Assembly: GCF_963576615.1 (NCBI RefSeq)
Contig: NC_088712.1
Span: forward strand, 27,371,870 to 27,435,869
From: Watersipora subatra
Lineage: Eukaryota; Bryozoa; Gymnolaemata; Cheilostomatida; Watersiporidae
Reading direction: 5' to 3'
DNA: 64,000 nucleotides
Shown: positions 6,481-57,755 of the stretch, piece by piece
Position numbering within the stretch: the first letter of the stretch is position 1
How the letters are laid out: each line of letters opens with the position of its first letter
Made by a program: the position numbers and the translations under genes
The notes under the pieces: model-generated
What the model was told of the DNA's origin: nothing
Database searches by the model: none
What the model saw: the letters and a program-made list of their open reading frames with translations, nothing else

Positions 6481-6756
6481 CTAGTTTTTATATAAATACC
6501 TTAATGGAAATTTGCTCATCCCCTTGCACATATGTTGTCTACTAACCATCAACATGCACATGTATGGTTGAGGAAAATAGCAAGAGGTCACTAGCCAACA
6601 CACGAGTTTCGTCAAAACTTAAAAGCCCACATGCAACCACATAGTCATAAAATATATGCTCACTTTCTCATGTTAATCAAAAGAGCTGAGGAGGCAAATT
6701 CAAATATATATACAATCACGTGTTTTAATAAACTTGTACTATAATAAAGACATTTA

Positions 6757-7338
6757 ACCAGTTATACGGTAAACACCAGTTACACAGTATACACCAGTTA
6801 TACAGTATACACCAGTTATACAGTATACACCAGTTATACAGTATAAACCAATTATACGGTATACTCCAGTTATACGGTATACACCAGTTATACAGTATAC
6901 TCCAGTTATACAGTATACTCCAGTTATACTGTATACACCAGTTATACAGTATATTGTAGTTATATGGTATACACCAGTTATATGGTATACACCAGTTATA
7001 CAATATACGCAATTTATACAGTAAACTCCAGTTATACAGTATACACCAGTTATACAGTGTACACCAGTTATACAGTATTCACCAGTTATACGGTATACAC
7101 CAGTTATACAGTATACACCTGTTATACAGTATACACCTGTTATACAGTATACACCAGTTATAAACCTAGTATACACCAATTATACAGTATACACCTGTTA
7201 TACAGTATAGTATACAATAGTTATAAACCTGGTATACACCTGTTATACAGTATACACTTGTTATACAGTATACACAAGTTATACGGTATACTCCTGTTAT
7301 GCAGTGTACACCTGCTATACAGTATTCCCCAGCCATAC
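6757..7338. repeat. 18-bp minisatellite, about 32 units
   Basis: The unit is close to AGTTATACAGTATACACC and repeats almost without interruption, with scattered substitutions and a few short insertions (for example TAAACCTAG near 7162 and 7225). Because 18 is divisible by 3 and the unit has few stops, long spurious open frames appear on both strands (YTSYTV-type and TGVYCI-type repeats). The unit contains the palindrome GTATAC. I see no sign that it is translated. Confidence 0.95.
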
Positions 7339-7339
7339 A

Positions 7340-8770
7340 AATAAATTTATTTCACAATGAGCATGGCTGTTCTAATCTATTGTTAACTGGCTGTAGTTAT
7401 TATTCTTATTGAACTAACACGAGTCTGTGTTTGGTTCATCTCACAATAATTACATGTAAATATGTACTTATTTGTAGTTGTTCAGACTTTTCGCTCACCC
7501 TATTTTTTGACAATTTTGTTAAATAACATTTTAAAAATTACAAAAGACTCTAAGTTATTATTTTGAATTATTTAAAGGTTGTATTTTTTGTATTTTCCAT
7601 ACTGTATAAGGGTGAATAGTACACACATTTTTGAGAAATCTGACTGATTTTTTCTAGTTTCGTGTTCCTCTTTGAAGTCCTTGCAGTTCCGTTTCATGCT
7701 TTTGCACTCTTCAGGTGCCTAGATGTAAAGTGCCGGTAGTTTTACCTCATTTTGTTTTGTCAAAATTTTTGTACTTTGCCTCTGACTGACTGATATTGGC
7801 TTAAGAGACATTGTTTGGAGTTTATGTAGGTGTTATTTATCTCATTTCTTTTGTTCACAGTGACGATGATTTACAAAGTAGGCAATATTTTTCAGTAAGG
7901 CCAAGTTAAAATTTTCTGTTAGATTTATGTGGAGTTTAACTTTCTGCATAACTTTTATTTAATCAAATGGTTTCTATTGTATTCTTACACTTCTAGATGG
8001 GCTTGCTGAGTTAGGTGTTTTTACTTTGTCAATGTATGTAAATGAGGCTCTAGCGCTATTATATTTAGTTATGAAGTTTGCAGTGCAAAGTGTAGCCTGT
8101 CTTGACAAACTGTTGTTTTTGCAGAGTTGTCCCTTGACGAGCAGGGCGAGCAAAACAACAGCTTGTCACAAGACGCACTGCACCTGATGTATCAGCTGCA
8201 CTGAGAGGGAGTTGTTCTCTTCCGTCTATGCAGCTTGGTAATCATAACAGATTTCGCGCAAAAATTTATGTAGGCAAAAAAAGATAAAACCGTTTAACCA
8301 GAGACCAGTCTTTGCGGTAAACGTCAGTAGAAAAGGGTGAGTGTTTACCGTTTTATGTGTATATAGAAGATTGTGATGCTAAGTTAGTTATAGGGTGCAT
8401 ATGTATTTGTGTCGAGGCCAAAAGCTACATCAAAAACATTTATGAATTTTTTTGCTGGCATCATTGATTAATTTTAAGTTTCTTTTGGTTACATGTGTCT
8501 CATATTAGTTTGTTCTTGTAATACTGTGATTTTTAGCTATAAAAGTTTACCATCTCCTTTTTATTTAGGTAACTTGTTTATTGCCTTTGCTGCCACCATT
8601 CTGCTTATTATTTCATTTGTTTCACTACAGTATCCCATCGAATCTGTTTTTGGACCAAAGTGGTAATTGTATGGCAGCATTGATCACCATCTGCGTGTGT
8701 TGCCATTGTAGCTTGACATATTTGTGCAGTTTAAAAACATGTTGTGTTTTCTTAGATTCCTCACATATAT
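7340..8770. other. Intergenic sequence, nothing recognised
   Basis: About 1.4 kb of unique-looking AT-rich DNA. No exon, RNA gene or transposon end was recognised on either strand. Confidence 0.4.
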
Positions 8771-8930
8771 TGTGAAAAGTTTTGTGCGACCTTCACTTTT
8801 CTCCACTAGTACAATACTCGGTGTATGAGTTAATACATATATTTTTTGCTTAGTTAATAAGTTGTACAATAATGCTCAAGTAGCTGGCAATGAACAGGCC
8901 CAGAACAGCTCTGTTGTCTAGCACAAAAGT
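8771..8930 (-). repeat. 3' LTR remnant of element A
   Basis: About 160 bp aligned with 23806-23970 (shared GTTTTGTGCGACCTTCA, ACTAGTACAA, TACATATATTTTTT and GTTGTACAATAATGCTCAA). The remaining ~230 bp of the LTR are absent. The sequence passes directly into integrase at ~8931, so a deletion removed the LTR start and the integrase C-terminus together. Confidence 0.8.
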
Positions 8931-8935
8931 GAGGA

Positions 8936-10351
8936 AGACTAGCACCCACTTTTTCCCCTTAGGCATGACCGGATATGGCCCCACCAAGTCCATGGCCACC
9001 TCCCGCCAGGGTCAACTGCCGTAGAGACTTTTTATCTTTCTGGCCGCATTTGTTCCTCGATGCTTTGCAGCCTTGTGCCCCTCACAACTTTTGATGAGCC
9101 GTCTGACTGCGGGCGTCAGTTCGCAGACGTGGACGTCAGCTGGAAGCAGCTTGTTGTTCTTCCCACCCCAGAGTGAGCCAGAGCATGCGTTTGCCACACC
9201 GTGGTCTCTCGCATAGCCGGGGGCAGATGGCACACCATCTGACGTGGCCCTAAAGGGCCACACGTGCTTTCAACACGCCGTCCTGTCGTATGCGCAGAGA
9301 GCCTCCCATGTGATGCAGGATATTCAGCTCTCTGCTTCCGACTTCTAGGTGTTACGCTTGCACTTCCTCTCCTGTAGCGATGGCATGGTACATGGTGGCT
9401 GATGGTCCTTGTCTGGTGGGCTGTGTCCTTGCCAGCTTGCCCTTCGGTCATGTCATCCCTGGTGTGGCCAGTAGCCCCTCGGGGAATCTCTGGCACCAAG
9501 GTTAAATCCCGCCACTGTTTCCGCGGGAGCCCCGTGTGAGTTGCTGGCCGTTCTTTGGGGTAGGCGACTGTGCCCAGAGTCGATCCTGCCTTGTCGAGAG
9601 CGGAAGTCCCATTCAAGCAACCGGTCGGTACCCACGCGGTTAGTGGCCTTTGTTCCCTTGACAACTCCTTTTTTGAAAGGCCCCAGTCCCAGTGCTCAAT
9701 GCTCGCGCATTGCTGGCAGTCATCGCCGGTTTGCTTGCTCAACCCATTTGCATTCCCGTGACAAGTCCTTGACCGATGTTCCAGACTGTAGCGGAACTCC
9801 GTCAAAATCTCAAGCAACCGGGCTACCTGGTTCGAGCCACCGAAGTGAAACGTGGTCCGTGAGAAAAACTCCTGACTATACAGATAAGGCCGAAAGTGCT
9901 TAACTGCCTTTACTACCGCAAGCAATTCTCTTCGAGTGATGCAGAAATTGCGTTTCAAAAGAGTGATAGTTTTACTGTAGTAGGCAATGGCACTCTTGCA
10001 GCCCTTCTGTGCTCGGGACAGTACGACCGCCCCTCCACATTCGCTGGCATCCGTGTCCAAGACGTTTTGCCTCCGGGAGTCCGGGTAGCCCAAAATTGAG
10101 GTGGTGCTGATAATACCCTGCAGCTGGTTGAAGGCGGACTGTTCTCTTTCCGTCCATCTTCAGGGCTCTTCTTTTGCAGTCAGCTGGTGCAAGGAATGTG
10201 CTATAGTGGCGAACTCCGGAATATACTGTCGGTAGTAACCGACGGTCTGGAAGAATCTTTAGAGTTCTTTTACTCCGCTCAGGTTCAGCCACTCTGTAAC
10301 TGCCTTTACCTTGTCGGGCTCTGTAGAGACTCCGTCCTGGCTTACTATGTA
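8936..10351 (-). pseudogene. RNase H-integrase fragment of element A
   Basis: Minus-strand pol remnant. From the right: a connection-domain piece (GVSTEPDKVKAVTEW, YYRQYIPEF), then RNase H with LDTDASECGG, AIAYYSKT and RRELLAVVKAVKHF, then degraded integrase zinc-region sequence. It ends with VAMDLVGPYPV, the start of the integrase core holding the first catalytic Asp. Everything after that is deleted up to the LTR remnant. Frames change several times, and no single ORF covers the region. The base composition is GC-richer than the flanks, as for most element DNA here. Confidence 0.8.
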
Positions 10352-10595
10352 TGTAAAGATTTGCCAAAAAATAGAGGCAATCTTTATGTTTTGAATTCGA
10401 CCTGGTTTTTGGAAGTTGTCTTATTTTAATTAGGGTGAAAATTAGTTTGCAAAGAAGTAAATGAGCAAGTGATCTTACACACACCAATCAAAAATAGTTT
10501 ATTTAATTCTAAAATGAAACAATCACAACCTTAAAAACTATTAAAATTGTACAATGGCTGACACTCAAAATCAAACTAAAATACAGTAATACCTG

Positions 10596-10632
<37 letters not shown>

Positions 10633-11073
10633 TGTAGACGTGTAATAACAGTTCAAAAGACAGTTTCATAAAGTGACGGAGCTGTATATATATGAGAATG
10701 TGACGCCACAATTAATTAAGATTAAATACTTAGAAAATGGGTGGTGCTAAAAATATAATAAAGTTAGGAAATGTGCAATAGTTTTGTGGTCAAGTTGGAC
10801 CAATAACTCGGACAACGGATAGCCAAGATGGGTAGAGTTAATTCACTTTGGTTAGCTAATTTTGACATAGTCATGCAACCCTAGGTCGAATATGTAAATG
10901 TTTGTGGGAATTCTTAATGTCCAAGTGTGTCTTCTTTAATATATGTCTTTCTGCTGGTGGAGGGTGTGTCATTCTTCTTTAATATAATTATGTGCGTAAA
11001 TGTTATGATGAATGTTGTAATGAAGTGGAATTAATTCTGATCGTGAGAACCTCCGATCTGTGGGAACCTTACA
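10352..11073 (-). repeat. 3' LTR of element B
   Basis: 722-bp LTR, nearly identical to 19867-20595. It contains a GA microsatellite (10599-10629), TATATATA on the minus strand near 10685-10694 as a candidate promoter, and an AATAAA on the minus strand near 10500, giving a plausible U3-R-U5 order. Confidence 0.9.
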
Positions 11074-11084
11074 CCTCCCTCATC
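11074..11084 (-). other. Candidate polypurine tract of element B
   Basis: Read on the minus strand, GATGAGGGAGG lies directly before the 3' LTR. This is the expected place for the plus-strand primer, though the tract is short. Confidence 0.45.
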
Positions 11085-11144
11085 CGCCAGTCGAACGGTA
11101 CGGGAGACGACTACATAAAATGATATGTCAGTTTGTATTGGGTA

Positions 11145-11146
<2 letters not shown>

Positions 11147-11192
<46 letters not shown>
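11147..11192. repeat. (TA)n microsatellite
   Basis: Uninterrupted TA dinucleotide run inside the 3' non-coding part of element B. Confidence 0.95.
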
Positions 11193-11195
<3 letters not shown>

Positions 11196-11261
11196 ACAAC
11201 GATGATTGCCGGTGATATAATTTTCTCCCGATTCATTCAGTGAAGGTTAGAAGGATGGCTG

Positions 11262-11336
11262 GTAAATAGTCGTAGGGTTGCATGACTCCCAATTTGTTCA
11301 CAATCACGAACTCTACCCGGGTTGGTTATCCGTCCT
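11262..11336 (+). repeat. Inverted, diverged LTR fragment
   Basis: Read in reverse complement, CGGATAACCAACCCGGGTAGAGTT and then AGTCATGCAACCCTA... match the B LTR around 10816-10886 (CGGATAGCCAAGATGGGTAGAGTT, AGTCATGCAACCCTAGG) with the same spacing. It lies opposite in direction to both LTRs and is much more diverged than they are from each other. It may come from a related element. Confidence 0.55.
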
Positions 11337-13141
11337 CCAGAGCAGACCGCCAGGCTAAAACAAAATTACACGAACTACAGGAGTAAAAGTTTCTACAAAA
11401 AAGGAACAGAATGTACGGAACACAAAAAGAAAATTTATATACAAAAAGAAAACTGTAAAAAAATCCATAAAAAAACAAAAAGAAAACAGACACAAACTTT
11501 CATTCACACACAAATCTAATCCATGTTATTTGATTACAGTTTATTTAATCAATGATTACGTGACTATGATTATTCAATTAATGTTTATTTTAATTAATGA
11601 CAACAGTTTATTACACTCGCCTCGATAATACTGTAACTTGTCCTGGGGAGTGATCTTCATTAGTCCGGCAGTGTAGGTAGGATGTGCAGGTAGGACGTGT
11701 AGGTAGGACGTGTAGGTAGGATATAGTTGGTACTTTCCTCATTCTCGTCGCCTACTAGCAAATAAAAACAGGCAGCAGCACCAGTTTTTAAGAGCACTGG
11801 GGCTTGTACTCAATAAGTGCCCAACACATTTTTTTTTTTTTGTGTATGGTGGCTGATCTTGGCTGCATGGGATATTGTCTACTCACTCATTTGGAGGGAG
11901 GCGGGTCAGAGACAGCTGTTCTCATGACTTAGAAGCCTCCCTCAGTGGTAGATCAGGCCTCATAAGGGTATTGTATGTAGTGGTAATGTAGTGCATAGGT
12001 CATCTCCTATCATTTGTATTTGGCCTCCTCCGGGGCAGCTCCTTTCCCCCCTCTGAGGCGTCGTCCGACGGTCACTCGATTTGCCAACAGCCCTGACGAA
12101 GAACTGCACCGGAATATCCACGAGCCTCTCCCGGCTCCCCTTCCTGCAACGATACTGGTCACCTCCCAACACCCACGCAGTAGGGTCATTATGGATCACC
12201 TTTTCACCAAACCATCAGGTCAGTACTGTTAAAATATTCTACATGTACATGTGACAAGGGATTACATGGCATAATATAAAACGCAATGTCATAGAAATTG
12301 GTTCCAGCGTCCCACCAGCTGAGCATTCCGAAGAACATAAGGCGCCAAAGTAAGATTAAATTAAAATTCAGTTAGGACGTGGTTAGAACATACGTGTATA
12401 GAGCACGGCATCGTGCCATGCGTCGCAATATGGATTAGGTTGAACTAGCTAGAGTCAGGATTATTACTAAGGGGTTACTACTAAAATCAACCAAGCGCGA
12501 ATATCCATACACTCTCCTTTATGACTCGAGGCGAGACAGTGCTATAATAAATTTCATGCTTGACAGGTACAACCACATCGGGAATAATAGGCACTGCGGC
12601 TTCTTAGACAGACAAGGCCGCACACACAAAGCACAAAAGTTCATATCGAGACATCAAAAACGGAGGGGACAAAGAGACATAAAAAATAAAGAATAAACAA
12701 AGAGCATAAACTAAGAATAAAAGATAAACAACCACAGAACGTCAGAATTCGACCCCACATACATGGTTCTACAGATTAACCCATCACCTCTTTTTGTCAG
12801 GCGTTTTTATAGTTTCTGATAAGTTTTTACAAGATAAAATAAACCAACATAGTTTTCTTATATACCCATACTTGTGACTTATCACTCACAATAAAATTCA
12901 TTAGTAGGGGCTAGCATTCGAGAATTCAAGAGTTATATGAGAATATTACAAGCGTAAGCAAGCGTAAGCCACGGTCATTGAGCGTGACGGCGGAGCTATA
13001 AGAGACGTGAGTTACTAAGTAAAATTAATCAACCAATAGGAAGAGACTCGGCCATTGTATGCAATTTCCAAAGCGTAGCAGGGCTAGTAAGTACATATAA
13101 GCATAAAATAATATACACCAAAACCATAAGATGAGCGAACG

Positions 13142-15289
13142 TCACAGCGCCCTGGGCCGCAGGTTATAAGTGTGGTTCCTGAGCTTAGGCTGAGGAGCGT
13201 GTGACTGCCTATTCCCGTGTCTGTCCGAAGGGGGATTATTTGTGTGCTTGTCTGGCAAAGGGATTAGTGTTTTGGACACGTAGGCAGGTTTATCAAATTG
13301 TTCAAGTGGGGAGGTAGCTTTCTTAAGGCGTTCTAAGTGGACAACAAACTCCACTCCGGTAGGATTACCGTCTACGTTCATAGCTTTCACACGGGCATTC
13401 AATCCTCTCAAGCCAGTCAAGACGTAAGGGCCGTGGAACTGAGACGTGAATTTCTTCACCTTCTCAGGTAGGGTGCGAGGGACTAAAACATATACTGTAT
13501 CTCCTATCACATATTTATGTTGTTTCGCATGCATATCGTGATAAAACTTGTACGTGCGTTGGGCACTTTCAATGTTGTCACTTGCCAAACGCCAAGCCAC
13601 AGCTAGAAATTCACGAGTGGTTTCGGCAACACTTTTGTCCTCGTTATAGGTCTCAGGCAGAGAAGCAGGAACACATAAGTCAAAGGGAATGTCAATCTCT
13701 CTCCCGCACTGGAGGTAAGTCGGGGTAAAGCCTGTACTGGCATGTTGAGTATTATTGTAGCAGTGCACAATGAAGGGGGTTAATTTATCCCAGTCGTTTT
13801 GGCTGGAACTAACCATGGTTGCCATTAAATTGCTGTATGTTGAGAAAAAACGCTCAATGAGGCCGTTAGTGGCTGCGTGAAATGGGGTAGTTTCTCTTTT
13901 CTCGATTCCCAACATGGAGGTTAGTTCTTGCATGACCCCGTTCACAAATTCGCCACCGTTGTCGCTCAGCAGGACGCCTGGCATGGCCAGTGGCAATATC
14001 ACGTGCTGCACTAAAGCCCCGGCCACCGTGGCCTTGGCCTTGTCAGGCGCTGGTACTGCCACCACGTACTTTGTGAAGCTACACTGAAACGCCAGTATGT
14101 ACCGATTGCCCTGCTGAGTGACAGGTAGTGGCCCAAGCATGTCTGTACTCACCCTAGCGAAGGGGCGTTCGCATCCTAGTGGTTGAAGTGGGTATACAGG
14201 TTTGGAGTGGGTCCGTTTTCTCTGATTGCAGAGCATACAGGCCTCCACGAAGGTAGCAACCGTCTGGTGCATCCCCAGCCAATAATATTTCTGGGCTAGC
14301 CGACCGAGAGTGCGCTTCCTTCCAACATGGCAGTCAAACAGGCCAGAATGGTATGCCTGCAACAAGTCAAGCTGTATAGAAAGAGGCACGCAAAGTAATG
14401 GGCGAGTGCTGCCGGCAGGATGGAAGTAGAGCACTTGATCATGGATGGAGTACTTGTCGCGATGTAATTGGAGGTGTCGCTTTTGGGTCACGTCCAGCTT
14501 GTGTGGAATCGTTCCGCTTTGTAAGAGGTCGAGAATCTGTCCTAGGAAGTGGTCTTCTCTCTGTCTCCTACCAAAATTATCAATCTCAGTTCGAGACGCA
14601 TTCAAGTACAGGGCGGTAGCGCCCACAAACTCTTCAGTTGTGTAAATGGCTCTGGACAAGGCATCAGGAACCACGTGTGTTTTACCAGGTTTGTAAATTA
14701 CTTTCAAGTTGTACTCCTGAAGTTTCAAGGAATATTTAGCCAGTCTAGAGTTCTTATGGTTTGCTGTCATAAGCCACTGTAGGGGCGCATGGTCAGTTAC
14801 GACGGTAAGGGGGTAACCCAGCACTAAATGCCTAAAGTGAGCGCATGCATCCACTATGGCCAAACCTTCTCGCTCAAACGTGCTGTATTTTCGCTCAGCC
14901 TCATTTAGGCTTCTACTGTAGTAGGCCACCGGATGTAACTTCCCCTCGACGTATTGGCACAACAGGGCCCCCAGTGCATAACCCGAGCTGTCAGTATGTA
15001 AGAAAAATGGAAGACTGAAGTCAGGAAAGCGTAAAACCAGAAATTCAACCAGTTTAGCTTTTAGGTAAGCAAAAGCCTCCTTACATTCTTTAGACCACGT
15101 AAAGGCCCTGTCTTTTTTCAACAAGTCTATTAGCGGCTGTGCTTTCTCACTATAGCTACTGATGTATGCTCGATAAAAGCTTAACATGCCTAGCGCGCGG
15201 CGTAAATAGGGTAAATCATGAGGTGAGGGAAATTTTAGGATCTTTTCTACTAAGCCAGGGGCAGGTTTGCTGCCCACCAAAGTAAACAC
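13142..15289 (-). CDS. pol: RNase H and integrase of element B
   Basis: An open frame of 715 codons counted from the first Met after an upstream stop; the true polyprotein continues upstream. Residues ~1-60 are the RT connection region. RNase H follows with D100 in FLHTDSSGYALG, REGLAIVDA and D166 in VVTDHAPLQWL. The integrase zinc domain has H314, H321, C351 and C354. The core carries D383 (STDMLGPLPV), D443 (LSDNGGEF) and E479 (NGLIERFF), which is the DD35E spacing. A C-terminal region (~570-640) resembles the GPY-type module (FTSQFHGPYVLTGL). Its role would be removal of the RNA template and integration of the cDNA. The catalytic residues look intact although the neighbouring RT is not. 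Confidence 0.9.
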   Translation of the reverse strand: MFTLVGSKPAPGLVEKILKFPSPHDLPYLRRALGMLSFYRAYISSYSEKAQPLIDLLKKDRAFTWSKECKEAFAYLKAKLVEFLVLRFPDFSLPFFLHTDSSGYALGALLCQYVEGKLHPVAYYSRSLNEAERKYSTFEREGLAIVDACAHFRHLVLGYPLTVVTDHAPLQWLMTANHKNSRLAKYSLKLQEYNLKVIYKPGKTHVVPDALSRAIYTTEEFVGATALYLNASRTEIDNFGRRQREDHFLGQILDLLQSGTIPHKLDVTQKRHLQLHRDKYSIHDQVLYFHPAGSTRPLLCVPLSIQLDLLQAYHSGLFDCHVGRKRTLGRLAQKYYWLGMHQTVATFVEACMLCNQRKRTHSKPVYPLQPLGCERPFARVSTDMLGPLPVTQQGNRYILAFQCSFTKYVVAVPAPDKAKATVAGALVQHVILPLAMPGVLLSDNGGEFVNGVMQELTSMLGIEKRETTPFHAATNGLIERFFSTYSNLMATMVSSSQNDWDKLTPFIVHCYNNTQHASTGFTPTYLQCGREIDIPFDLCVPASLPETYNEDKSVAETTREFLAVAWRLASDNIESAQRTYKFYHDMHAKQHKYVIGDTVYVLVPRTLPEKVKKFTSQFHGPYVLTGLRGLNARVKAMNVDGNPTGVEFVVHLERLKKATSPLEQFDKPAYVSKTLIPLPDKHTNNPPSDRHGNRQSHAPQPKLRNHTYNLRPRAL

Positions 15290-15442
15290 GTATCCTAGGT
15301 ATTGTACTTCAGCTCATGCCCACACAGACTTCGCAGGATTAATTTTAACTCCATATTGGATAAATTTGTCTAAAACATTGCCAATCCGCCGCTTGTGCTC
15401 AGCATAATTTGGGGGTGAAAATATTAAAATATCATCCAGAAA
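15290..15442 (-). pseudogene. pol: RT remnant of element B (only the FLDD-to-thumb part)
   Basis: A piece of ~150 bp encodes the reverse transcriptase catalytic box (FLDDILIF, GAT GAT at 15431-15436) and the following thumb segment. The fingers and the first palm aspartate are missing: protease-proximal sequence is joined straight to the FLDD box, which implies deletion of several hundred bases. An in-frame TGA (15314-15316) separates it from the RNase H-integrase frame, and it is out of frame with the upstream 1130-codon ORF, which stops at 15432. Reverse transcription by this copy is not possible. Confidence 0.85.
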
Positions 15443-18400
15443 GCACTGACATTCTACCCATAAAAGATTTCCCAGGATAACCATGTAAAATGGCTAGTGG
15501 TTTACTGGTGTGCCAATTGTCCGTCATTAGGACGTCAAGGCCTCGAAGTGTACGTGCTTGGAGCGGATTAAAACACAATCTGAGCCTTCCTGAGGTGTAC
15601 TCAAATCCCACCTGTCTGAACTTTTTCAGGTTGTCAACTCCTATGATAAGGTCATAGGGACAATTTGCCAGTATTAAGAAAGACGCTGTACACCTCACGT
15701 CCGGCTCATATTGTATTGGTGCGTACACTTCGCCTATTCCCTTTACTACATTTCCCGTTACAGAGCGAATAGCCCTGCAGCTGTTACGTACCCACCTGGA
15801 GAGACCGAGCTTTCTGCAGAGCTCTTGGGTCATAGTACTTACCTGGGCTCCAGTATCTATCAGGGCATCCATTGGGGTCCTGCTTACCTTCAAGCGGGTC
15901 AAGGACAGGTGTGCGGAGGAGGAGGCACAGAGGAGGTCATGTATAGTCGGCGCGAACCTAGCAGACCGTCTGGGGCGGCCCTTCATAGATCTCCGAGTTG
16001 GACGAGGGAGCGCTCTCAAAGGACCGTCACTGCGCCGCTCACTAGTCGCTGTAGTGCCCTGGTTTGGAGAAGGATGAGGCGGAGCTACGAGAGCCATCTC
16101 AGAGGGGTCCTCCGCTTCGGATGAGTCCTGGCAGGTTTCCCCAGCGCCCTGTTGGTTGACCTGCACCAAGAGGTTAGTACTTGTTCCCGAGCAATTAGTG
16201 CCACCACCCCACATATGGTTATTTAGCCTCTGCTTGGGTTCCTTCAAAAGAGACTTACAGCGAGTACAAATTCTAACCAACCGCCACAAAGTATTTAGTG
16301 TCACAATTACGCAGCAAATAAATATCCACATCTGTTTTATGTCTACTTCTTTTAAATTGATTAAGAAGGCAAAAGTCCCCTTCTTAACGATGGACCTGGC
16401 CATGGTCCCTGCCTGTTCCTGTGGGTCTGCATGAACTCGAGAAGATATGCCTAGATACTCGAGTACTGCTTTTTGTTTCGCTTTTTCCCCTTGTAAGTCG
16501 TTTAAGCTATACTTCTGACCAAATTCTTTCCAGTCATGTAAGACAAGATTATGAATGATGGTGCCATTAAGTGGGAAGGCTGTCGATGAGTAATTCAGAG
16601 AGACCAAGTTTAATGTGTCAGTTTTACCTATTTCTGTAAGTGTGCCTGTTCGGTGATGATAGAAATAAGCCTTATCGCTCAATACCACAGGTATTTCCAC
16701 ATCTAAGGCACAATCGTCTGAATGAGTGTTTCGGTAGAGTATATGTTTGTGAGTGTCCATGAATAGAGTCATGTTTTCGTCGTTAATTATGACTGTCATA
16801 GGGATTCTGTCACTGCAGGTGTCTGAGGCAATGATATGGTAATCGTCTACAGGCTCACAGGGATAAGCCGTAATGAGATTCCCCGTCAGTCGCGCAAACA
16901 AGTAAGTTTGTTTAGTCAAAAGTCTAGTAGCTAAGGTAGGGTTACCTGCCAATGAAGTGGTCAGTAGTTTGGTCGTAGCTTTCATGTATTGGCAAGTGGC
17001 AGCAAGGGCAGCTCGGAACATGGCAACTAGGTTATCCCTCATCCTCCACTCCACCGCTTGCAAGCGGGCATTCAGCTCCGAACTGACCACCAGACCCCCG
17101 GTATTTGGCTCTGCCTTTGCCTCCCTCCGTCCTCTGGACTGGGGTCTCCTCACGGCGATCTGCTGGTCAGATATTTCGAGCTGTCCGCCACACTGCGCAC
17201 TCATGGAGAAGGTGGTGTTTCGGGTGAAGGTTAGCGCCAGTTCACCATCCTCCGAGAGCCACGTATTAGCTTGCGCTTGTCTGTTGTATTTCCTCTGGAA
17301 AAGAAAGTCACATGTCTCATTTGCGTCCGGGGCCCACATTAAGAAAGACCCGTCTTTAAGGCTGCAGGTACCTTGCTCGTAAATACAGTGTGACACCACC
17401 CCAACCACGCTCTCCATAGCCTCACCATCCCCATGTCTTTTTAAGACCAGGGTCTCGTAGAGGTATGCGTTTGAGGCCGTGAAGGAGTAGGTCTGACAGC
17501 ATTTAAAGCCGGCCAGGTACCTGAAATCTACCTTATTGTCGGTCTTGTAGACTCCATTGGCCTCAGTCAGTGTTCCAAAGTTGCTCGTCTCCTGGTCTCT
17601 CATTCTTACACACGAGTCAAAAGTCACCGGCTGTGTTTTGTAGTCAATGGTCTTTTTCCTATTACCTCCCACAAAATCTGTGTAGGTAGTCACCAAGGTC
17701 TGTACTACTTTGCAAACTATTGCGTTGGTCCGGTACTGGGCATGATTCTGTCTATATAGCTCGATAGTCATGGGGGTTGGCTCGGGTGTCTGGTCAGTAG
17801 AAGGTAGCACGCAAGTAGGGGTCTCAGGTAGTCTAAACCGAGCAATTGGATTGGAAGTCCGACAAATCATAGGAGTAGTGGTCGCACAAGTCGGTATGCA
17901 AAGTAGTATCAGTATCAGTGTGGCGTAAGTCCTTAAGAGTCCACCATTTAGTCGGTACATAATCCCTATCAATCCATTGGTCATTGTAGTCAATACTGAG
18001 TGGGAGTTGTTTCCCCTCTTAAATTTCAGGTAGGCATTTGTCAGGCATGTCATGGTCAGTATAAGCAGAGTCAGCAGAAATGAGTATTGATGCTTACTTG
18101 TTGTAGGTGTTGGAGGAGAGTTTTCCGGTGCCTGTGTTGCCTGCAAGGTTTCTATGCTAGCCTTTACACAACCGACACCACCCTCATCATGCGGCTCGGG
18201 CTGCAGATCTACGAGCTCAATAAAACTAACGTCAAACACAGCACAGTTGTTAGCGGTCCGAGTCCGCCCTGATTGCTGACCAAGAGGAGGTCGGCTGGGT
18301 CTAGCTCCCGGCCCACGCATAGGAGCGCCCGGCGTGTTCGGGTTGCCAAAAGGGGGCGGAGGTCCAGGAACCATGGCCTCCCGAGGGGGATAATACGCCG

Positions 18401-18824
18401 TCCCCTCAAAGTAGGAGTCAGGGGGCCGTACCTGGCGCGGATTTTCCCAATCAGGTTGGTAACCGCGAGATGGCTCCCATTCCCTAGGAGAGTGATTAGT
18501 TAGCGAACTGTTAGAAGGGTTTTGTCTCTCACCATGGTTAAGTTTTTGGGAAGGGCATGTTTTACGGAAATGTTGTAAGCTACCACACTCAAAGCAACCC
18601 TTCTCCCTACGGAGATTTTTATTCTCCGCTCTTTTAGTGGTGAATCTCCGATTCTGGGGTACATCAGCCATGCCCATGCTATCGGAAGATTCATACCCTT
18701 CACCCCGACCTCGCAGGGTGCCGATTGCCCTCTGCCCAGTCTCTACACTGCAGGCCATCTTGACTATCTCATCAATAGCCTTGTCAGAGACAATTAACAG
18801 GTTCTTGCGGATGCTATCTACCAA
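15432..18824 (-). CDS. Gag zinc knuckle - Env-like glycoprotein - aspartic protease polyprotein of element B
   Basis: One open frame of 1130 codons. Residues 1-60 are the end of capsid. Residues 77-90 are a CCHC knuckle (C77, C80, H85, C90). A Pro-rich stretch follows (100-190). Hydrophobic segments at ~247-265 and ~298-314 precede a Cys-rich ectodomain with N-glycosylation sequons (NETC, NTTF, NMTL, NYSS, NGTI). A basic site RRPQSRGRR (559-567) has the form of a furin-like cleavage site. A second hydrophobic anchor, WIFICCVIVTLNTLW (~833-847), is followed by a basic, Cys-containing tail. Residues ~960-1090 are a retropepsin with D990-T-G-A and later LIIGVD. The glycoprotein has surface/transmembrane architecture but I cannot assign it to a known envelope family. 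The usual site of env is 3' of integrase. The end is artificial, caused by the RT deletion. Confidence 0.85.
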   Translation of the reverse strand: MVDSIRKNLLIVSDKAIDEIVKMACSVETGQRAIGTLRGRGEGYESSDSMGMADVPQNRRFTTKRAENKNLRREKGCFECGSLQHFRKTCPSQKLNHGERQNPSNSSLTNHSPREWEPSRGYQPDWENPRQVRPPDSYFEGTAYYPPREAMVPGPPPPFGNPNTPGAPMRGPGARPSRPPLGQQSGRTRTANNCAVFDVSFIELVDLQPEPHDEGGVGCVKASIETLQATQAPENSPPTPTTSKHQYSFLLTLLILTMTCLTNAYLKFKRGNNSHSVLTTMTNGLIGIMYRLNGGLLRTYATLILILLCIPTCATTTPMICRTSNPIARFRLPETPTCVLPSTDQTPEPTPMTIELYRQNHAQYRTNAIVCKVVQTLVTTYTDFVGGNRKKTIDYKTQPVTFDSCVRMRDQETSNFGTLTEANGVYKTDNKVDFRYLAGFKCCQTYSFTASNAYLYETLVLKRHGDGEAMESVVGVVSHCIYEQGTCSLKDGSFLMWAPDANETCDFLFQRKYNRQAQANTWLSEDGELALTFTRNTTFSMSAQCGGQLEISDQQIAVRRPQSRGRREAKAEPNTGGLVVSSELNARLQAVEWRMRDNLVAMFRAALAATCQYMKATTKLLTTSLAGNPTLATRLLTKQTYLFARLTGNLITAYPCEPVDDYHIIASDTCSDRIPMTVIINDENMTLFMDTHKHILYRNTHSDDCALDVEIPVVLSDKAYFYHHRTGTLTEIGKTDTLNLVSLNYSSTAFPLNGTIIHNLVLHDWKEFGQKYSLNDLQGEKAKQKAVLEYLGISSRVHADPQEQAGTMARSIVKKGTFAFLINLKEVDIKQMWIFICCVIVTLNTLWRLVRICTRCKSLLKEPKQRLNNHMWGGGTNCSGTSTNLLVQVNQQGAGETCQDSSEAEDPSEMALVAPPHPSPNQGTTATSERRSDGPLRALPRPTRRSMKGRPRRSARFAPTIHDLLCASSSAHLSLTRLKVSRTPMDALIDTGAQVSTMTQELCRKLGLSRWVRNSCRAIRSVTGNVVKGIGEVYAPIQYEPDVRCTASFLILANCPYDLIIGVDNLKKFRQVGFEYTSGRLRLCFNPLQARTLRGLDVLMTDNWHTSKPLAILHGYPGKSFMGRMSVLSG
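15555..15947 (-). other. pro: Retropepsin domain of element B
   Basis: Aspartic protease domain, residues ~960-1090 of the ORF. It shows the flap-containing single-domain retropepsin pattern: ALIDTGAQVSTM at the active site, then a V-G-I-G segment and YDLIIGVDNL near the end. It would cleave the Gag-Pol precursor. Its position directly downstream of a membrane anchor instead of the nucleocapsid is the odd point. Confidence 0.8.
16215..17978 (-). other. env: Env-like glycoprotein segment within the 1130-codon ORF
   Basis: This marks the part with envelope character (about residues 283-870): signal-like hydrophobic stretch ending LLCIPTCA, Cys-rich first subunit, basic cleavage site at ~17125-17150, second subunit with conserved-looking Cys pairs (PCEPVDDY, DTCSDRIP, DDCALD), membrane anchor near 16283-16330 and short cytoplasmic tail. 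If both ends span the membrane, Gag and Pol parts would both face the cytosol, which is compatible with a membrane-threaded polyprotein. Expression by splicing or a separate start is equally possible. No splice site was proven. Confidence 0.7.
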
Positions 18825-19674
18825 GTTAAGCTTGAAATGTAAAGATACAAAGGGGTCTGACAGGGGGTCCCACTAGCAGTGACAACTTTCCGAAACCGTT
18901 CATAATATTCTTTTACAGATTCGTGGGGAAGTTGTTTGGTCATGGAGATCTCAAGAGCAGCTTGGTCTGACCCTCTACTTGCCCCGAGTTTGACCTTCAT
19001 CTTATTGCACAGCTCTTTGTAAGTAATATTTCTATCTTTCAAAATAATTTCGTCGTAGTATCCTTTTGGTATGCTCAACAAATAAAATCCCAACACTGCT
19101 GTTTTGCTTTTGTCTGGCACTCTATTAAAAGTACAGCAGGTTTCAAATTTTGACAGGAACTCGGGCCAAGTCAGATCACCCGTTTCCCCTGCAAATACCT
19201 TCAACGCAAATTTGAGCCAATCTCTGGGGTTCCCCCCTGCGTCGTCAGACCTTTGAGTAATTTGCCGGGATTCCCCAACACCAAATTCACCACCACCAAT
19301 AGGCATAAAATCACCTTCACCAGTTACCCCAACACCACTAGACAAATTAGAACCTACTTCAGATGGTCCTCCTAGCTGCACCTGCCCATCGGTGACTCCT
19401 CCTGATCGGTGCGGTGCAGGTCGCGAACCTGCCTTACCCGCTCGCGGATATCCCTTGACGTTTTGGTCACGACTCCTGCCAAGGAGTCCACCAGCTCCTT
19501 TGCTCTCTGGCTGGTCTTCTCCTCTGACGCCTGCAGGTCGGCCCTCAGCTCTGTCATCTGCTGTTCCTGTTGGGATGCGGCATGTTGCATCGCATCCTTA
19601 AGCGCTGCCATCATCTCTTCTCGAAAAGCCTGGATGCTCTCCACTACTGCCAGTTTCACTTGTTCGTCAGCCAT
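18818..19674 (-). pseudogene. gag: Gag of element B, frameshifted
   Basis: The start codon at 19674 opens a 100-codon frame with a helical, coiled-coil-like N-terminus rich in Gln/Glu (DAMQHAASQQEQQMTELRA). The frame ends at 19372 and a second open frame (19381-18818) continues with a capsid-like retrotransposon gag domain (DWLKFALKVFAGE, WPEFLSKFE, VKEYYERFRKVV). That frame stops at 18818 while the next (1130-codon) frame carries on in the natural reading. The second shift coincides with a run of five C at ~18865, so a one-base indel is likely. Overlaps are only 10 and 7 bases, and no canonical slippery heptamer was seen. Mutation or assembly error is preferred over programmed shifting. Confidence 0.75.
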
Positions 19675-19847
19675 TGTTATTATTTTATTAGAATATTCAG
19701 TTCAATAATTTTTAACCACTCTTTATACAAGTTAGTTATCTATTTGTCCAATTAATTAATCCAATGATCTATGTTCTTATGAATCCAAATTTTATTTAAT
19801 CCAAAGGAATATTATTATTATATTTACATTTAACAAGATGCGAGAGG

Positions 19848-19865
19848 TCCCGGGTTTCGGCACCA
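19848..19865 (-). promoter_or_regulatory. Primer binding site complementary to tRNA-Phe
   Basis: Minus-strand TGGTGCCGAAACCCGGGA lies one base downstream of the 5' LTR. It is an 18-nt complement of the 3' end of eukaryotic tRNA-Phe including CCA, as recalled from the conserved tRNA sequence. It marks the start of minus-strand DNA synthesis and confirms the element's orientation. Confidence 0.85.
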
Positions 19866-19866
19866 A

Positions 19867-20115
19867 TGTAAAGATTTGCCCAAAAATAGAGGCAATCTTT
19901 ATGTTTTGAATTCGACCTGGTTTTTGGAAGTTGTCTTATTTTAATTAGGGTGAAAATTAGTTTGCAAAGAAGTAAATGAGCAAGTGATCTTACACATACC
20001 AATCAAAAATAGTTTATTTAATTCTAAAATGAAACAATCACAACCTTAAAAACTATTAAAATTGTACAATGGCTGACACTCAAAATCAAACTAAAATACA
20101 GTAATACCTGGCTTC

Positions 20116-20146
<31 letters not shown>

Positions 20147-20595
20147 CGAGAGTAGTGTAGACGTGTAATAACAATTCAAAAGACAGTTTCATAAAGTGAC
20201 GGAGCAGTATATATATGAGAATGTGACGCCACAATTAATTAAGATTAAATACTTAGAAAATGGGTGGTGCTAAAAATATAATAAAGTTAGGAAATGTGCA
20301 ATAGTTTTGTGGTCAAGTTGGACCAATAACTCGGACAACGGATAGCCAAGATGGGTAGAGTTAATTCACTTTGGTTAGCTAATTTTGACATAGTCATGCA
20401 ACCCTAGGTCGAATATGTAAATGTTTGTGGGAAATCTTAATGTCCAGGTGTGTCTTCTTTAATATATGTCTTTCTGCTGGTGGAGGGTGTGTCATTCTTC
20501 TTTAATATAATTATGTGCGTAAATGTTATGATGAATGTTGTAATGAAGTGGAATTAATTTTGATCGTGAGAACCTCCGATCTGTGGGAACCTTAC
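19867..20595 (-). repeat. 5' LTR of element B
   Basis: 729-bp LTR, the partner of 10352-11073. It contains the same TATATATA and AATAAA candidates on the minus strand and a GA microsatellite (20115-20152) interrupted by A and C. Confidence 0.9.
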
Positions 20596-23500
20596 ATGTA
20601 ACCCAAGAAGATGACCTAAGGTTGCAACAGTTTGCATTTAGATGGTTTTTGTTTCAGTCCGGCCTTCTAGAGTCTCTAGAGACCTCCTCTAGCCAATGCA
20701 AGTGCGTATCAAAGTCTGGGGTGATGACTATAATATCCTCAAGATACAGTAGCATCGTTCTTTAGTGGAGGCCATGTAGAATGTGTTCCATGAGCCTTCG
20801 GAAGGTGGCTGGGGTAGATGTCAGTCCAGAAGGCAACACGTTCCACTTCCACAATCTGGACTGTGTTGAGAAGGCCAACTTCTCGTGCACTTTTACATCC
20901 AGGGTTACCTGCCAATACCCGCTCACCAGATTGAGCGTGCTGAAGTAGCAGCTGCTAGACAGGGCGTCTAGGCTATAGTCGATCCTGGGTAGGGGATAGG
21001 TGTCCTGCTCGGTGACGGCGTTCAAATGCTGGTAGTCTATGCAGTAGCGCCACTTCCCGTCTTTTATTTTTTGGATCAACACTGAGGGAAGCTCCAAGCT
21101 TCTACTGCTGGTTCGGTAATCCCCTTCTTAAGTAGATCCTGGATCTGCCTCTCAGCCTTTGCTTCCTTTTCCAATTCAAGTATGTGGTGGGTTGCCGGAT
21201 CGGCCGGATGCACTCCTTAAGCAGAATGGAATGTTCTACCACGAAGGTCCTCCCTACGTTGTCTTCACCCGTGCTGAACACGGTGGCATATTGACTCAAC
21301 AAAGAGGCTAATCTCGCCGTCTGACCTGTTCCCTTACAGTTAGGCCGGGCTGCCTGGAACAACTCCTCAAGGTGAGCCGGCACTCCATTGATTGAAGTTG
21401 GACCGGCTTCATACAATAAGAGGTTGTTCTCTCCAACCTGCACAGTCTCTACCCCCATGTAATTGCCGATAGTAGCTCCGGATCAGAAGGTCATAGGCCA
21501 CTCCGTAACATTCATGCAGCAAATGATGACCTGTACCTTGGGTCCCAGTTGATTCAGGCTACTTGCTACCGAGGGTCCATCAGGGAATCCTTCAATCAGT
21601 CCCATGAGGCAGTAATTCCATGTGGTGATGCGACAGTGTATTGCCATCTCCGTCTGGGTGGGACCCACCACCCCCCTGATCACCTGTACCTGGCTCTGTA
21701 ACCGCCATCCATGCTGATCTGTGCAGACTAGCTGCCTGCCACCTACGCCGACTACCAGTTGCTCAAACTCGAGAGAGAGCACTGATGTGCCACAAAGAAT
21801 GGCATTTCAAGTATGGCATCTTCGCTTAGACGGCTGACCACAAAGACTTCTTCCATTCTTACATCCTTCAGGGGGATGATCAAACGGATTATCCTGTAGA
21901 AGGGAGCCATGATTCGTCAGCCCATAACCCGTGGCTGTCACTCTCTAGAAGTTGGCCCCATATGGCTCCTGGCAATTGGTCAAATACCTGCTCATTGATC
22001 AGGTTTGTGGTGCATCCTGTGTCTAAAAGAAACTTGATGGGCCGCCCCTCCACTTTTTCTGGGAGTAAATAGCTGGTGGAGTGAGGTCAGCTGAGGGATC
22101 ACACCCTAGTGGTGTCTTCCAAGACATCTTCCATGAGGCCTGAGAGACATCCTCTCTGGGTAGCGTGGGGGTCAATCCCTTAGACCGTCCCGCATCTGGG
22201 GTGACCCGCGGCTCCTGTCATTTTTGTCCTCAAGGCAGAGAAAGAATCAGTCTTGCCGCTTTTAAGGCAGGCTTATGACTATCAGGTCTAGTGGGGGTGG
22301 TTCTTAATGTCTAGGGTGGAGGGATTTGGGTGTCATCCTCCTTCGTTTTGAACTACGTCCCTGCCGTTTGAGTGGAGGGGCGTAAGTGGTATCTGGGACA
22401 GTGGGAATGTCCAGACTGGCCTCACTCCAAGACAGGTAGTAGTTTCCTGTCTCCACAGACCTTTCCTTTACACAAATTTTCCTCGGCCTAGTCTTCGCTG
22501 GTTGAGACCAACCACCGACTGTCACCAAATTTTGTGTAGTCCTGTGTTTCCCGGGTTGTTTGGCCTTGGCACAGCCAGTAGTTGGAGCTACTGCTGTGGC
22601 CTATCTTCGACTTCTGAAACCGGTTTTGAATAGCGAGGGCAATTCTTCTATACGTGCCCTGGTTAGCCACAACCCCAGCAATGGGTAGCTAGCTAAGTCC
22701 ATGTCTCGGTTGGAGTGTGGACCTGCTCCTGGAGCCATTTCACCTTTTCCGTGAGAGTTGAGACTAGCCGGGCTAATCGTCCAATGACATCGGTTTTGGC
22801 TGAGTTCACCTGAACAGAAGATCCCCCTTCCAGAGCCCATACGGAAGATTCGGTGGGTTTGCGCTTGTCTTCCTAAATCTAAAGGTAATCATTTCCAGCC
22901 TGTACAGCTTCAGCTAGTATGGGCATATGTACGGCCAACATATGTCGCTGCAGGGCAGGGTTCCTTACTGAGCTGCAAAAGGTCTCTATGGGCATGCTAT
23001 TCTGGTGTCAATTTGGCAGGTCCCCGTATGCAATGCGTACCAGCCTCTCGATCTCCATAGCATGCTCCTGAAGCGTAGTTCCTTCCTTTCGCTTAAGGGT
23101 GTTAAGCTGGCTTAATGCCTGCCTAGCGGATAGCCCGAGTCTTGCCCAGAGGGCATTGAAAATTGCCTCCTGGTTTTTGGCCTGCTCGCAGTCTTTAGCC
23201 CTTTTTGCCCAGTGCTTCTTGGAGGTGCAACATGGTTGCCCCTTCCGTTCAATGGTTGGCGTCGGTTACCTCAATGAAGCAAGCAATGAAGTATTTCACA
23301 TCTCCATTTCCAGTGTACTGAGGAGTCCTGAAACGTGGTGCCGGTTCCTGCGCCATTGGCTGCAGTAACACCCATTTTAGTGCTTCGACTAGTTGGTCTT
23401 GTCCTGGATCAGCGTTTTGTGCTCTCCTATTGGCTATGTTTGACTTTCAATAGGTTTCTGCTCCCTTTCCAGAACAGTGCCTTTACTGAGTCTGTGGCCG

Positions 23501-23805
23501 TCAGCTCTTTTCTGGGTTGCTTCTTGTCACCAGGAAGTTCTTTCAGTAGGAGCAACACTGCTTCCTCAGGCAAGTCCCATAGGAGCCTTCAGTAGGTTTC
23601 TTCTTCTGAAGCAGTGTATCTACTGGGTCCGATACTGAAGGGTTTTCCACAGCTCTCTTTGGGTTTTTCCTGTTGCCAGGAAGTTCCTCCAGTAGGAGCA
23701 GTGTCGCCGTTTTTCAGGCAGCCCAGTTCATCCAGAGTTCGGTGATCCTGATACGAGTCCTGTGGTGGAGTTCTCGGGATTGTCAGAGATCCCACTGCTG
23801 ACCCC
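20596..23805 (-). pseudogene. Gag-protease-RT part of element A
   Basis: Minus-strand remnant. The RT palm is the best-preserved piece (20762-21097: DGKWRYCIDYQHLNAVTEQD, YPLPRIDYSLDAL, STLNLVSGYWQVTL, RRLMEHILHGLH), followed by a YLEDI catalytic box variant before the B insertion. Upstream is the linker with IRPIRQPT (21102-21458). A protease active site KFLLDTGCTTNLI lies near 22010-22055. The region 22300-23800 corresponds to gag but is broken by many stops and frame changes, and no zinc knuckle was recognised. There is no functional product. Confidence 0.75.
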
Positions 23806-24198
23806 AGTGAAAAGGTTTTGTGCGACCTTCAATTTCCCCAACTAGTACAAGACTCAGTGCCTGAGTTTATACATATATTTTTTCCTTAGTTCATAAGTTG
23901 TACAATAATGCTCAATTAACAGGCAATGAACCGAACAGAACAGCACTGCTCTCTAGCACAAATGTTCAGTATTATATAGGGGGTAGGTTCCACCTCTCAT
24001 TCTACTTGGCCGGGCTTGACCCGGCTCGGTTCAGCTTGACTTTGGTTTAGACCTGCTCAGCTCTGCTTGGCTTGGCTGTACTCATATCGGCCGGCTTGGC
24101 TCCCACTGGCTTAACTCTCACCTCGTTATTCTGCCTGACTGAGCACAGTCCATCTCAGCTCAGCCCTAGGCTAAGCTTTAAGTGAATTACATTCCACA
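23806..24198 (-). repeat. 5' LTR of element A
   Basis: About 393 bp ending TTCCACA in plus orientation (TGTGGAA on the minus strand). The first ~160 bp match the left remnant at 8771-8930. The middle carries degenerate GGCTTGG/CGGCTC-type repeats (24000-24170). Boundaries are estimated from the alignment with the left copy. Confidence 0.7.
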
Positions 24199-35033: not shown

Positions 35034-36089
35034 TCATGAAAATAAAGTCATGAAAAACATTTTTACTGCATTCTTGGATTTGATGAAAAGTTTATCACAA
35101 CGACATGTATTGTGTAGTCTGATGTTGCCTTTCTTGCAGAGATCTTTAGCTGACTCTATAAGCTCCTTTGCTTCTTGCTCACTACTGACTGATATCAATC
35201 CGTCATCTACATATAGAGATTGTTGAATGAAGTCTGCAGCTTTTGGATGTGTGCTCTGGTGTTTCTGTGCCAGATATCTCAATCCGAATGTGGCGCAACC
35301 AGGTGAAGATGTAGCGCCGAAAAGGTGCACAACCATTCTGTATACCTTGACTGTCTCCATTTTGTCATCCCACCACAGGAATCTGAAGTAGTCTCTGTCA
35401 TGCTCCGCCACCCGAAACTGATGAAACATTTTCTCGATGTCACACATGATGGCAATTTTCTTTGCTCTGAATCTCAGAAGCACTCCTAATAATCCGTTCA
35501 GGAGATTGGGACCTTGCAGTAAGTGGTCGTTGATGGACTGTTGTCTGAACTTCGCACTGCCATCAAATACTACTCTGATCTTGTCAGGTTTCTTTGAGTG
35601 AAAAACTGCGAAGTGTGGTAAAAACCAACACTCTCCTTTCTTTCCAGGTGTAGTGACCTCTTCTGCATGACCCTGATCCAGTAAGTTGGTCATAAACTCT
35701 GTGTACTGCTGTCTGAACATAGGTTTGCTTTGGAGTTTTTTTCCTAGTAGATGGAGTCGTTTCTCGGCCATCTTTTGGTTGTCTGGTAGATCGGTAGGTC
35801 TCTCACGAAACGGCAGTGGCATGGTGACAAAGTCCTCAGAATCCTGGTGGATGTTCTTGCTCAGGTGTTGCAGAAATGATCTATCTTCCATAGAGATTGC
35901 TTTGCTATGGTCTTTAATGTCTGTGAAATCTGTCTGCATGATCTTTGTAATCTCGTTTGAAAAACTATTTTCCTTTATCGTTGTTTTGCATTCAAAAGCT
36001 AGCTGATTTCCAGCCTCTGACTCTTTCATGATTACTCTGTGACTGATTCCTAATCTATCTGCACTTTCTCTCTGGTCTACTGTACCCAC
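35034..36089 (-). pseudogene. BEL/Pao reverse transcriptase, truncated
   Basis: 351 codons. The Pao RT pattern is clear: WFLPHFAVFHSKKPDKIRVV, FDGSAKF, NDHLLQGPNLLNGLLGVL, CDIEKMFHQFRV with the first catalytic Asp, FLWWDD, HLFGATSSP and the catalytic box QSLYVDDGL. The frame ends shortly after the thumb (HNTCRCDKL). Upstream, PLPFRERPTDLPDN is the typical Pao linker. It would copy RNA into cDNA if complete. Here the C-terminal domains are gone. Confidence 0.85.
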
Positions 36090-36187
36090 GATGCTCTATC
36101 CCAATTCCGTCTTGACAGCGTAAGGAACATTACCCTCTGCTCTGATGGTCTCTATTGTTGCTAAGGCACTCATGCAATCATATCCTA

Positions 36188-37009: not shown

Positions 37010-37111
37010 CTCTGTCCCATTAACTTCTACTTCATCTTGTAGAAATTCCGTCAGGTCTTTCAGCTTTGGATATATTTTGTGTTTGCGTTTGTACGACGTG
37101 ACTTTTCTCTT

Positions 37112-49968: not shown

Positions 49969-50017
49969 AACACATACAGTACACATATATACGTATACAT
50001 ACATATATACATATACA
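49929..50017. repeat. (TA)n/(CA) tract at the 5' end of LINE copy 1
   Basis: ACATATATATATA-type repeats between the MITE and the tRNA-like start of the LINE. Confidence 0.85.
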
Positions 50018-50090
50018 GGACAGATAGCGCAGTTGGTAAGGTATCGGGACCATGATCATTAGGTCCTCGGTTCAAACCCCAACAACTGCA
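50018..50090 (+). ncRNA. tRNA-like 5' end of the LINE (pol III A and B boxes)
   Basis: TAGCGCAGTTGG (50025-50036) matches the A box and GGTTCAAACCC (50069-50079) the B box. Between them GGACC...GGTCC could form the anticodon stem. The same sequence is present at the 5' end of copy 2 (near 57710-57788), so it is part of the element and not a neighbouring gene. The acceptor stem is not convincing, so it is unlikely to be a working tRNA. It may act as an internal promoter or derive from a captured SINE. Confidence 0.7.
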
Positions 50091-53411: not shown

Positions 53412-53471
53412 GAGACCCGAGTTAGAGCAGAATTTACCACCCATACGGGGTATCCGGGGTGAGGAAACAAT

Positions 53472-53510
<39 letters not shown>
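53472..53510. repeat. (TA)n tract at 3' end of LINE copy 1
   Basis: Pure TA run joining the LINE tail to the 259-bp repeat array. Confidence 0.95.
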
Positions 53511-53511
<1 letters not shown>

Positions 53512-53515
53512 TCAT

Positions 53516-57750: not shown

Positions 57751-57755
57751 GGTCC

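Follow-up and report, generated by a model that had tools for sequence, protein, structure and literature searches.

We analyzed a 64,000-nucleotide stretch of the genome of the bryozoan Watersipora subatra (contig NC_088712.1; hereafter the window). Its minus strand contains a 10.2 kb Ty3/Gypsy long terminal repeat (LTR) retroelement at 10352–20596 (Table 1). One open frame of this element places an envelope-like glycoprotein (Env) between the zinc knuckle of the nucleocapsid region (NC) and the aspartic protease (PR). An initial annotation, made from the sequence alone, had described this 1130-codon frame without its strand and had proposed for it the order Gag–Env–PR–Pol. The frame is real and reads on the minus strand. 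The CCHC knuckle and the DTGA motif of the protease were found where they had been placed, and the basic furin-like site contains R-G-R-R. Hydrophobic segments occupy residues about 248–268 and 292–322, and a membrane anchor follows at about 827–854. The Cys-rich ectodomain holds 13 cysteines, from residue 338 onward, and five glycosylation sequons (residues 502, 536, 684, 744, and 753). The stop-free stretch around the frame measures 1146 codons, while first-order Markov simulations of the element (500 runs) gave none longer than 245.

The ectodomain is recognized by a viral profile. PF24664, the Monjiviricetes fusion glycoprotein family, matched the window frame with 48 bits (cut-off 27) and the isolated Env block with 49 bits, and it was the only Pfam family above cut-off in this frame besides protease families. 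P0002, a JGI metagenome protein that is 50% identical to the window Env over 400 residues, matched the same family with 52 bits, and all seven further Env regions taken from other copies scored above cut-off as well (33–53 bits). The corresponding E-values for the window frame, P0002, and the seven regions range from 3e-8 to 2e-14. In P0002, none of the 13 cysteines in the shared part of the ectodomain is lost, and the same is true of every sequence in an alignment of 18 of the 22 loci L001–L022, from which L006, L007, L008, and L017 were omitted for their interrupted frames. All 18 sequences also carry R-x-[K/R]-R at the position of the furin site. On the profile evidence, we identify the ectodomain as a viral fusion glycoprotein rather than as the Gag linker that the initial annotation had named as the alternative. 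The herpesvirus gB profile reached 15 bits with P0002 and L009, well short of the 43 needed, and at most hints at a class III fold. Relatives of both Env (P0002, 50%) and the protease–reverse transcriptase (RT)–RNase H (RH) region (P0003, 92–93%) are present in public JGI and ENA assemblies. Scans with Rfam, tRNA, and NCBIfam models and of viral and genome contig collections gave no useful result.

We surveyed gene order across the genome from which the window comes (239 contigs, 783.7 Mb). All counts are lower bounds, as scoring covered 41 of 952 candidates in one search and 62 of 8285 in the other. The genome search returned 61 matches, 41 of which cover Env. For 40 of these 41, a protease lies within the same match (only its start in L005) or in a protease match at most 277 bases away on the same strand; the exception is on contig C11, where the other half is found in an opposite-strand match 1.9 kb away. 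A search with RNase H–integrase (IN) yielded 54 pol loci at 47% identity or more after merging of split matches, and 32 of them have an Env match upstream on the same strand. Upstream stretches were fetched for 20 of the remaining 22 loci (the two left out are both on C4), and 17 of these have Env before the protease. Env therefore lies upstream of the protease in 49 of the 52 related pol loci examined, 32 by coordinates and 17 by this reading. Among the matches listed, none of the 41 Env matches lies within 8 kb downstream of an RNase H–integrase match on the same strand. Some copies are partial: L048 retains just 246 bases of Env, and L033, L044, and L045 retain part of it.

The order is equally apparent within single frames. 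Capsid, Env, and PR follow each other in 18 of the loci L001–L022; L007 is without capsid in the piece obtained, L008 is without PR, and L006 and L017 keep the order with a frame change. The CCHC motif is found in 17 of the 18 aligned sequences, the remaining one (L011) beginning after its position. In 15 copies, Env and integrase belong to the same open frame of 2,424–2,609 codons. In six downstream pieces (L023–L028), the pol frame stops after integrase, and no match to the window Env was found there. Env matches of other lineages are 40–49% identical to the window frame, and the arrangement persists in a lineage whose pol is 32–33% identical. The proposed Gag–Env–PR–Pol order thus holds, and so does its conservation in other genome copies, which the initial annotation had set as a test. 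That annotation had also noted that retroviruses and env-bearing Gypsy elements place env 3' of integrase; the International Committee on Taxonomy of Viruses (ICTV) indeed states this for Metaviridae (PMC7879559), whereas Env lies upstream of PR here.

The ectodomain is under purifying selection, as judged from substitution ratios (dN/dS, NG86 method) in 13 pairs. Three unsaturated, well-separated pairs of lineage A, to which the window copy belongs, gave 0.08, 0.08, and 0.09. Two pairs gave 0.04 and 0.06 at dS above 2, which makes these values unreliable; four very close pairs with few changes gave 0.11–0.35, the highest involving L011, whose longer frame carries a stop; and four pairs were saturated. 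Ratios elsewhere are 0.16–0.41 for NC, where computable, and 0–0.29 for PR. Env and PR have also diverged in parallel. For 17 sequences (L005 was omitted for its truncated protease), the distances of the two regions correlate with a Mantel r of 0.94, a value that 0 of 2000 permutations reached. FastTree trees of Env and PR share the groups L001–L004, L009–L011, L012/L013/L016, and L014/L015/L022 with L019. They conflict in that Env pairs L018 with L020 (0.999) and PR pairs L018 with L021 (0.662). In four of six compared copies, we found matching LTR-like stretches of 99–100% identity (390/390; 391 columns with one mismatch and two gaps; 147/147; 75/75), and therefore at least some copies moved recently. 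Such stretches were not found in the other two copies, whose pieces perhaps end short of the LTR.

A deeper lineage, E, comprises six listed loci (within L049–L055, on C3, C5, C6, and C10) with the pol identity of 32–33% given above. One copy was read through gag and Env, and all six across the junction to Pol. In the former, a CCHC motif and the start of Env share one frame, and Env continues into the adjoining piece in the corresponding frame (27–29% identical, E down to 3e-64; the border codon between the two pieces is excluded from the reading). After Env, a TGA is followed by protease and RT in the same frame. The evidence for gag in this lineage is the CCHC motif together with weak similarity to NC (E 2e-4 to 1e-3). 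The same-frame TGA precedes Pol at the same place in all six copies; the base after it is C in five of them, L051 having T instead. Every copy also encodes GQSPN in frame between the TGA and the first ATG. This pattern suggests stop readthrough. Murine leukaemia virus likewise reads through a same-frame stop to make Pol, but there the stop comes after Gag; the putative readthrough stop of lineage E instead separates Env from Pol. Shorter frames had made lineage E look like an Env-less outgroup, a view that was overturned by the Env of the copy read.

The window element shows the general anatomy of Metaviridae: LTRs with TG...CA termini, a target site duplication (TSD) of 4 bp, within the usual 4–6 bp, a primer binding site (PBS), and a polypurine tract (PPT). 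The LTRs agree in 714 of 731 aligned columns, with gaps making up 8 of the remainder. The PBS is complementary to what we take to be the 3' end of tRNA-Phe. The zf-CCHC profile gave 14 bits on the window frame, which is below its cut-off. The Pol order PR–RT–RH–IN is pieced together from RT–RH–IN in L023–L028, PR–RT in L002–L004, and PR–RT–RH in P0003. Among solved structures, Ty3 is nearest for the RT of P0003 (158 bits, followed by 134, 108, and 83 bits for other enzymes) and for the RH–IN region of the window. Between integrase and the 3' LTR, the usual site of env, about 2 kb (11074–13141) contain no listed frame of 100 codons.

Table 1. Features of the Ty3/Gypsy element in the window (residues refer to the 1130-codon frame)
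Feature	Position	Strand	Remarks
5' LTR	19867–20596	−	730 bp, TG...CA termini
3' LTR	10352–11073	−	722 bp
TSD, lower copy	10348–10351		TGTA, read directly from the sequence
TSD, upper copy	20597–20600		TGTA, read directly from the sequence
PBS	19848–19865	−	TGGTGCCGAAACCCGGGA; starts one base after the 5' LTR
PPT (purine-rich tract)	11074–11085	−	abuts the 3' LTR
Gag, N-terminal part	19372–19674	−	100 aa, ATG start, separate frame in the window copy
Gag, capsid part	18818–19381	−	second frame; PF03732, 26.3 bits (cut-off 24.1)
NC–Env–PR open frame	15432–18824	−	1130 codons
CCHC zinc knuckle	18555–18596	−	residues 77–90; C-x2-C-x4-H-x4-C
Signal-peptide-like segment	17886–17951	−	residues 292–313, before the ectodomain; hydrophobicity criterion only
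Env ectodomain	16332–17885	−	residues 314–831; PF24664 (Monjiviricetes_fusion) at 478–706
Furin-type site RGRR	17124–17135	−	residues 564–567
Env membrane anchor	16269–16331	−	residues about 832–852
Aspartic protease region	15483–15986	−	residues 947–1114; DTGA at 990–993
RT remnant with FLDD motif	15317–15490	−	remaining RT deleted
RT end, RNase H, and integrase	13142–15313	−	GPY motif read directly

The window copy is defective. Three features beyond the initial annotation are a gag spread over three frames (two frame changes), a largely deleted RT, and the nesting of the element within another Gypsy element. Only positions 147–191 of RVT_1 matched, and the RT remnant carries an in-frame stop at 15314–15316. 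The deletion was recognized by comparison with P0003. This protein, encoded on a public ENA contig, matches the window copy with 92% identity in the protease and 93% in the first part of RNase H; as it starts at the protease, it is uninformative on Env. Because L002–L005 carry gag (including its N-terminal segment), Env, and PR in a single frame, we take the gag frame shifts for private lesions of the window copy. Programmed frameshifting at the gag overlap (18818–18872) was considered and rejected: this overlap contains no X-XXY-YYZ heptamer, and L002–L005 need no shift.

The aligned sequences bear on how Env may be expressed and separated from its neighbors. A conserved methionine before the signal is absent across lineages (lineage E excluded); in L009 and L010, the 60 residues preceding the signal contain no methionine at all. 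Env is therefore without a conserved AUG of its own, and the candidate starts Met281 and Met289 of the window copy were abandoned, neither being conserved across lineages. In lineages other than A, a conserved boundary closes the signal: A, S, C, or G, followed by Q-x-PM[I/L]C. The anchor is present in all 18 sequences, some 504–536 residues past the signal boundary. Between anchor and protease, a tail motif recurs, [N/S/D]-T-x-[I/L/V]-x-[I/V]-x-[L/V]-[N/H/T]-Q. In the window it occupies residues about 880–895 (16140–16187), and it is conserved across lineages, for example as NTNISIALNQ. This motif may be a cleavage or sorting site.

Env would have to be separated from Gag and Pol either within a polyprotein or by in-frame splicing. 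We favor the former, with somewhat more confidence than doubt: a Ty3/Gypsy clade would carry, between NC and PR, a relative of the fusion glycoproteins found in Monjiviricetes (mononegaviruses, chuviruses), inherited since before its main lineages split and made as part of a polyprotein. Translation would begin at gag, and the internal signal would direct the chain into the endoplasmic reticulum mid-protein, where signal peptidase would release Gag. A furin-type protease would cleave the ectodomain, the chain would pass back into the cytosol at the anchor, and the protease that the element itself encodes would separate the Env tail from Pol. In the deepest lineage (E), Pol output would be governed by leaky termination at the UGA that precedes it. 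Particles would use the glycoprotein to exit and enter cells. Tentatively, with our judgment close to evenly divided, we extend this proposal to a deep Ty3/Gypsy clade in which Env is an obligate inner domain of Gag-Pol, covalently joined to Gag and crossing the membrane mid-protein, with one lineage using UGA readthrough after Gag-Env.

Several observations weigh against the polyprotein proposal. The initial annotation had argued that two membrane crossings leave Gag and Pol on the same side. This topology stands in its plain form, with only signal and anchor before the protease, in 7 of the 18 sequences. It does not in nine in which a further hydrophobic stretch precedes the signal, closely in the five of lineage A and by 105–168 residues in four others, nor in L012 and L013, where the signal falls under the threshold used and the anchor alone is detected. 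Since this plain topology applies to 7 of 18 sequences only and TGA-C to five of six lineage E copies only, we hold the polyprotein proposal with slightly less confidence. It is also hard to reconcile an Env in every Gag molecule with capsid assembly unless cleavage is efficient. Among the pol loci, L038 has protease and RT and neither Env nor gag in the fetched stretch, L042 has gag without Env or protease, and L043 has Env without protease. The lineage E copy reached 26.3 bits with PF24664, slightly under the cut-off of 27. AlphaFold models of the ectodomain are of low confidence (pLDDT 32.5 and 30.6), searches of solved structures with the ectodomain returned nothing significant, and a protein search with the whole 1130-codon frame returned no relative.

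The main rival, which we regard as possible but doubtful, leaves the anatomy unchanged and has Env translated from a subgenomic RNA produced by splicing. An in-frame junction would link a donor close to the start of gag with an acceptor directly ahead of the signal, the start codon would come from the upstream exon, and the full-length RNA would give little Gag-Env-Pol or be translated differently. Insect endogenous retroviruses make Env from spliced RNA; in the portion available of PMC12992720, the main env exon is joined to a small upstream exon, to an AU dinucleotide, or from within gag. Splicing fits the missing conserved methionine equally well, and the window copy has an AG shortly before Met281. 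However, 15 copies share a Gag-Env-Pol frame, so that unspliced RNA must still yield the fusion, and the lineage E stop lies between Env and Pol and not after Gag (gag being read in one copy). A quite improbable variant would have the Env block removed as an intron to give Gag-Pol, while unspliced RNA gives Gag-Env. It would account for an Env-free Gag-Pol from one frame, and the initial annotation had likewise pointed to possible junctions near 18000–18200, but the frame is open across both Env borders in most of the L001–L022 sequences, which an intron does not need.

Two further explanations would dispense with an inherited Env altogether. That an Env fragment entered a single gag-pol copy, or was put there by misassembly, might be suspected from the damaged state of the window copy, but we give this idea hardly any credence: the order recurs in 49 of 52 loci on many contigs, in several lineages as remote as 40–49% identity to the window frame, and under purifying selection. 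Equally negligible is the notion of a Gag spacer with chance membrane features and no envelope glycoprotein. The uninformative AlphaFold models would allow it, but the PF24664 E-values and the conserved cysteines, furin-type site, and anchor speak against it. A chance frame or Gag linker is likewise excluded by the profile, cysteine, and selection evidence.

The window contains other repeats. The element described here interrupts a second Gypsy element, recognizable by remains of its RT and RNase H on both flanks (8772–10351 and 20601–23965); possible LTRs of this outer element at 8772–8930 and 23807–23965 are identical in 137 of 160 columns. Another Gypsy-like element, with CCHC, RT, RNase H, and integrase across several frames, lies at 43365–47047 on the plus strand, and BEL/Pao-like fragments lie at 35034–37900 on the minus strand (RVT_1 above cut-off, DUF1759 below). 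At 50015–57787, a near-palindromic pair of LINE-like copies, with arms of 2351, 584, and 214 nt that are 96–98% complementary, surrounds a 259-nt tandem repeat at 53506–54282. Overlapping frames on both strands at 6754–7344 arise from a short repeat and represent simple tandem DNA.

The comparisons with known systems that follow are limited to the partial texts available of the publications cited. Errantiviruses, the insect Ty3/Gypsy retroviruses such as gypsy and ZAM, resemble the window element in their Gag-PR-RT-RH-IN order, LTRs, and tRNA primer site, and their Env likewise has a signal, a furin site, and an anchor. In contrast, this Env is encoded downstream of integrase (PMC7879559) and typically made from spliced RNA (PMC12992720), whereas here it occupies the NC–PR interval in the same frame; the Env-F of the latter work is also of a different type from the window Env. 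The LTR element Anakin has likewise captured a chuvirus-like glycoprotein, from the same broad viral group (PMC7642597), but it belongs to BEL/Pao and not to Gypsy, and BEL-Pao Env proteins known earlier lie downstream of the polyprotein (PMC7642597). Jingchuvirales glycoproteins near arthropod Gypsy elements represent the same pairing of a chuvirus-type glycoprotein with Gypsy, although that survey reports no clear evidence of capture by Gypsy (PMC10084718). Lokiretroviruses have an Env that similarly resembles Mononegavirales fusion glycoproteins, together with a tether and a second RNase H (PMC9040795). The window element differs in that one RNase H match follows directly after the RT end and integrase comes next, as judged by domain spacing only. 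TelKA of bdelloid rotifers is likewise an LTR element with an Env from negative-strand RNA viruses; unlike the Env of the window, its paramyxovirus-type F is encoded as ORF3, usually downstream of pol (PMC5408684).

Our literature search, which did not cover the most relevant recent work on metazoan envelope-carrying retrotransposons, found no Gag-Env-Pol order in the partial texts available. If true, an Env that forms an inner domain of Gag-Pol would be an organization undescribed for reverse-transcribing elements in the literature searched. A stably inherited Gag-Env-Pol order breaks the rule, as given in PMC7879559, that env-bearing Gypsy elements encode Env after integrase, and it sets a glycoprotein of the kind known from negative-strand viruses midway along a polyprotein. 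How one frame can supply both a protein bound for the secretory pathway and the cytosolic Gag and Pol thereby becomes a testable question. In practice, annotation may have a blind spot here, in that searches for env restricted to the region 3' of integrase would miss such elements.

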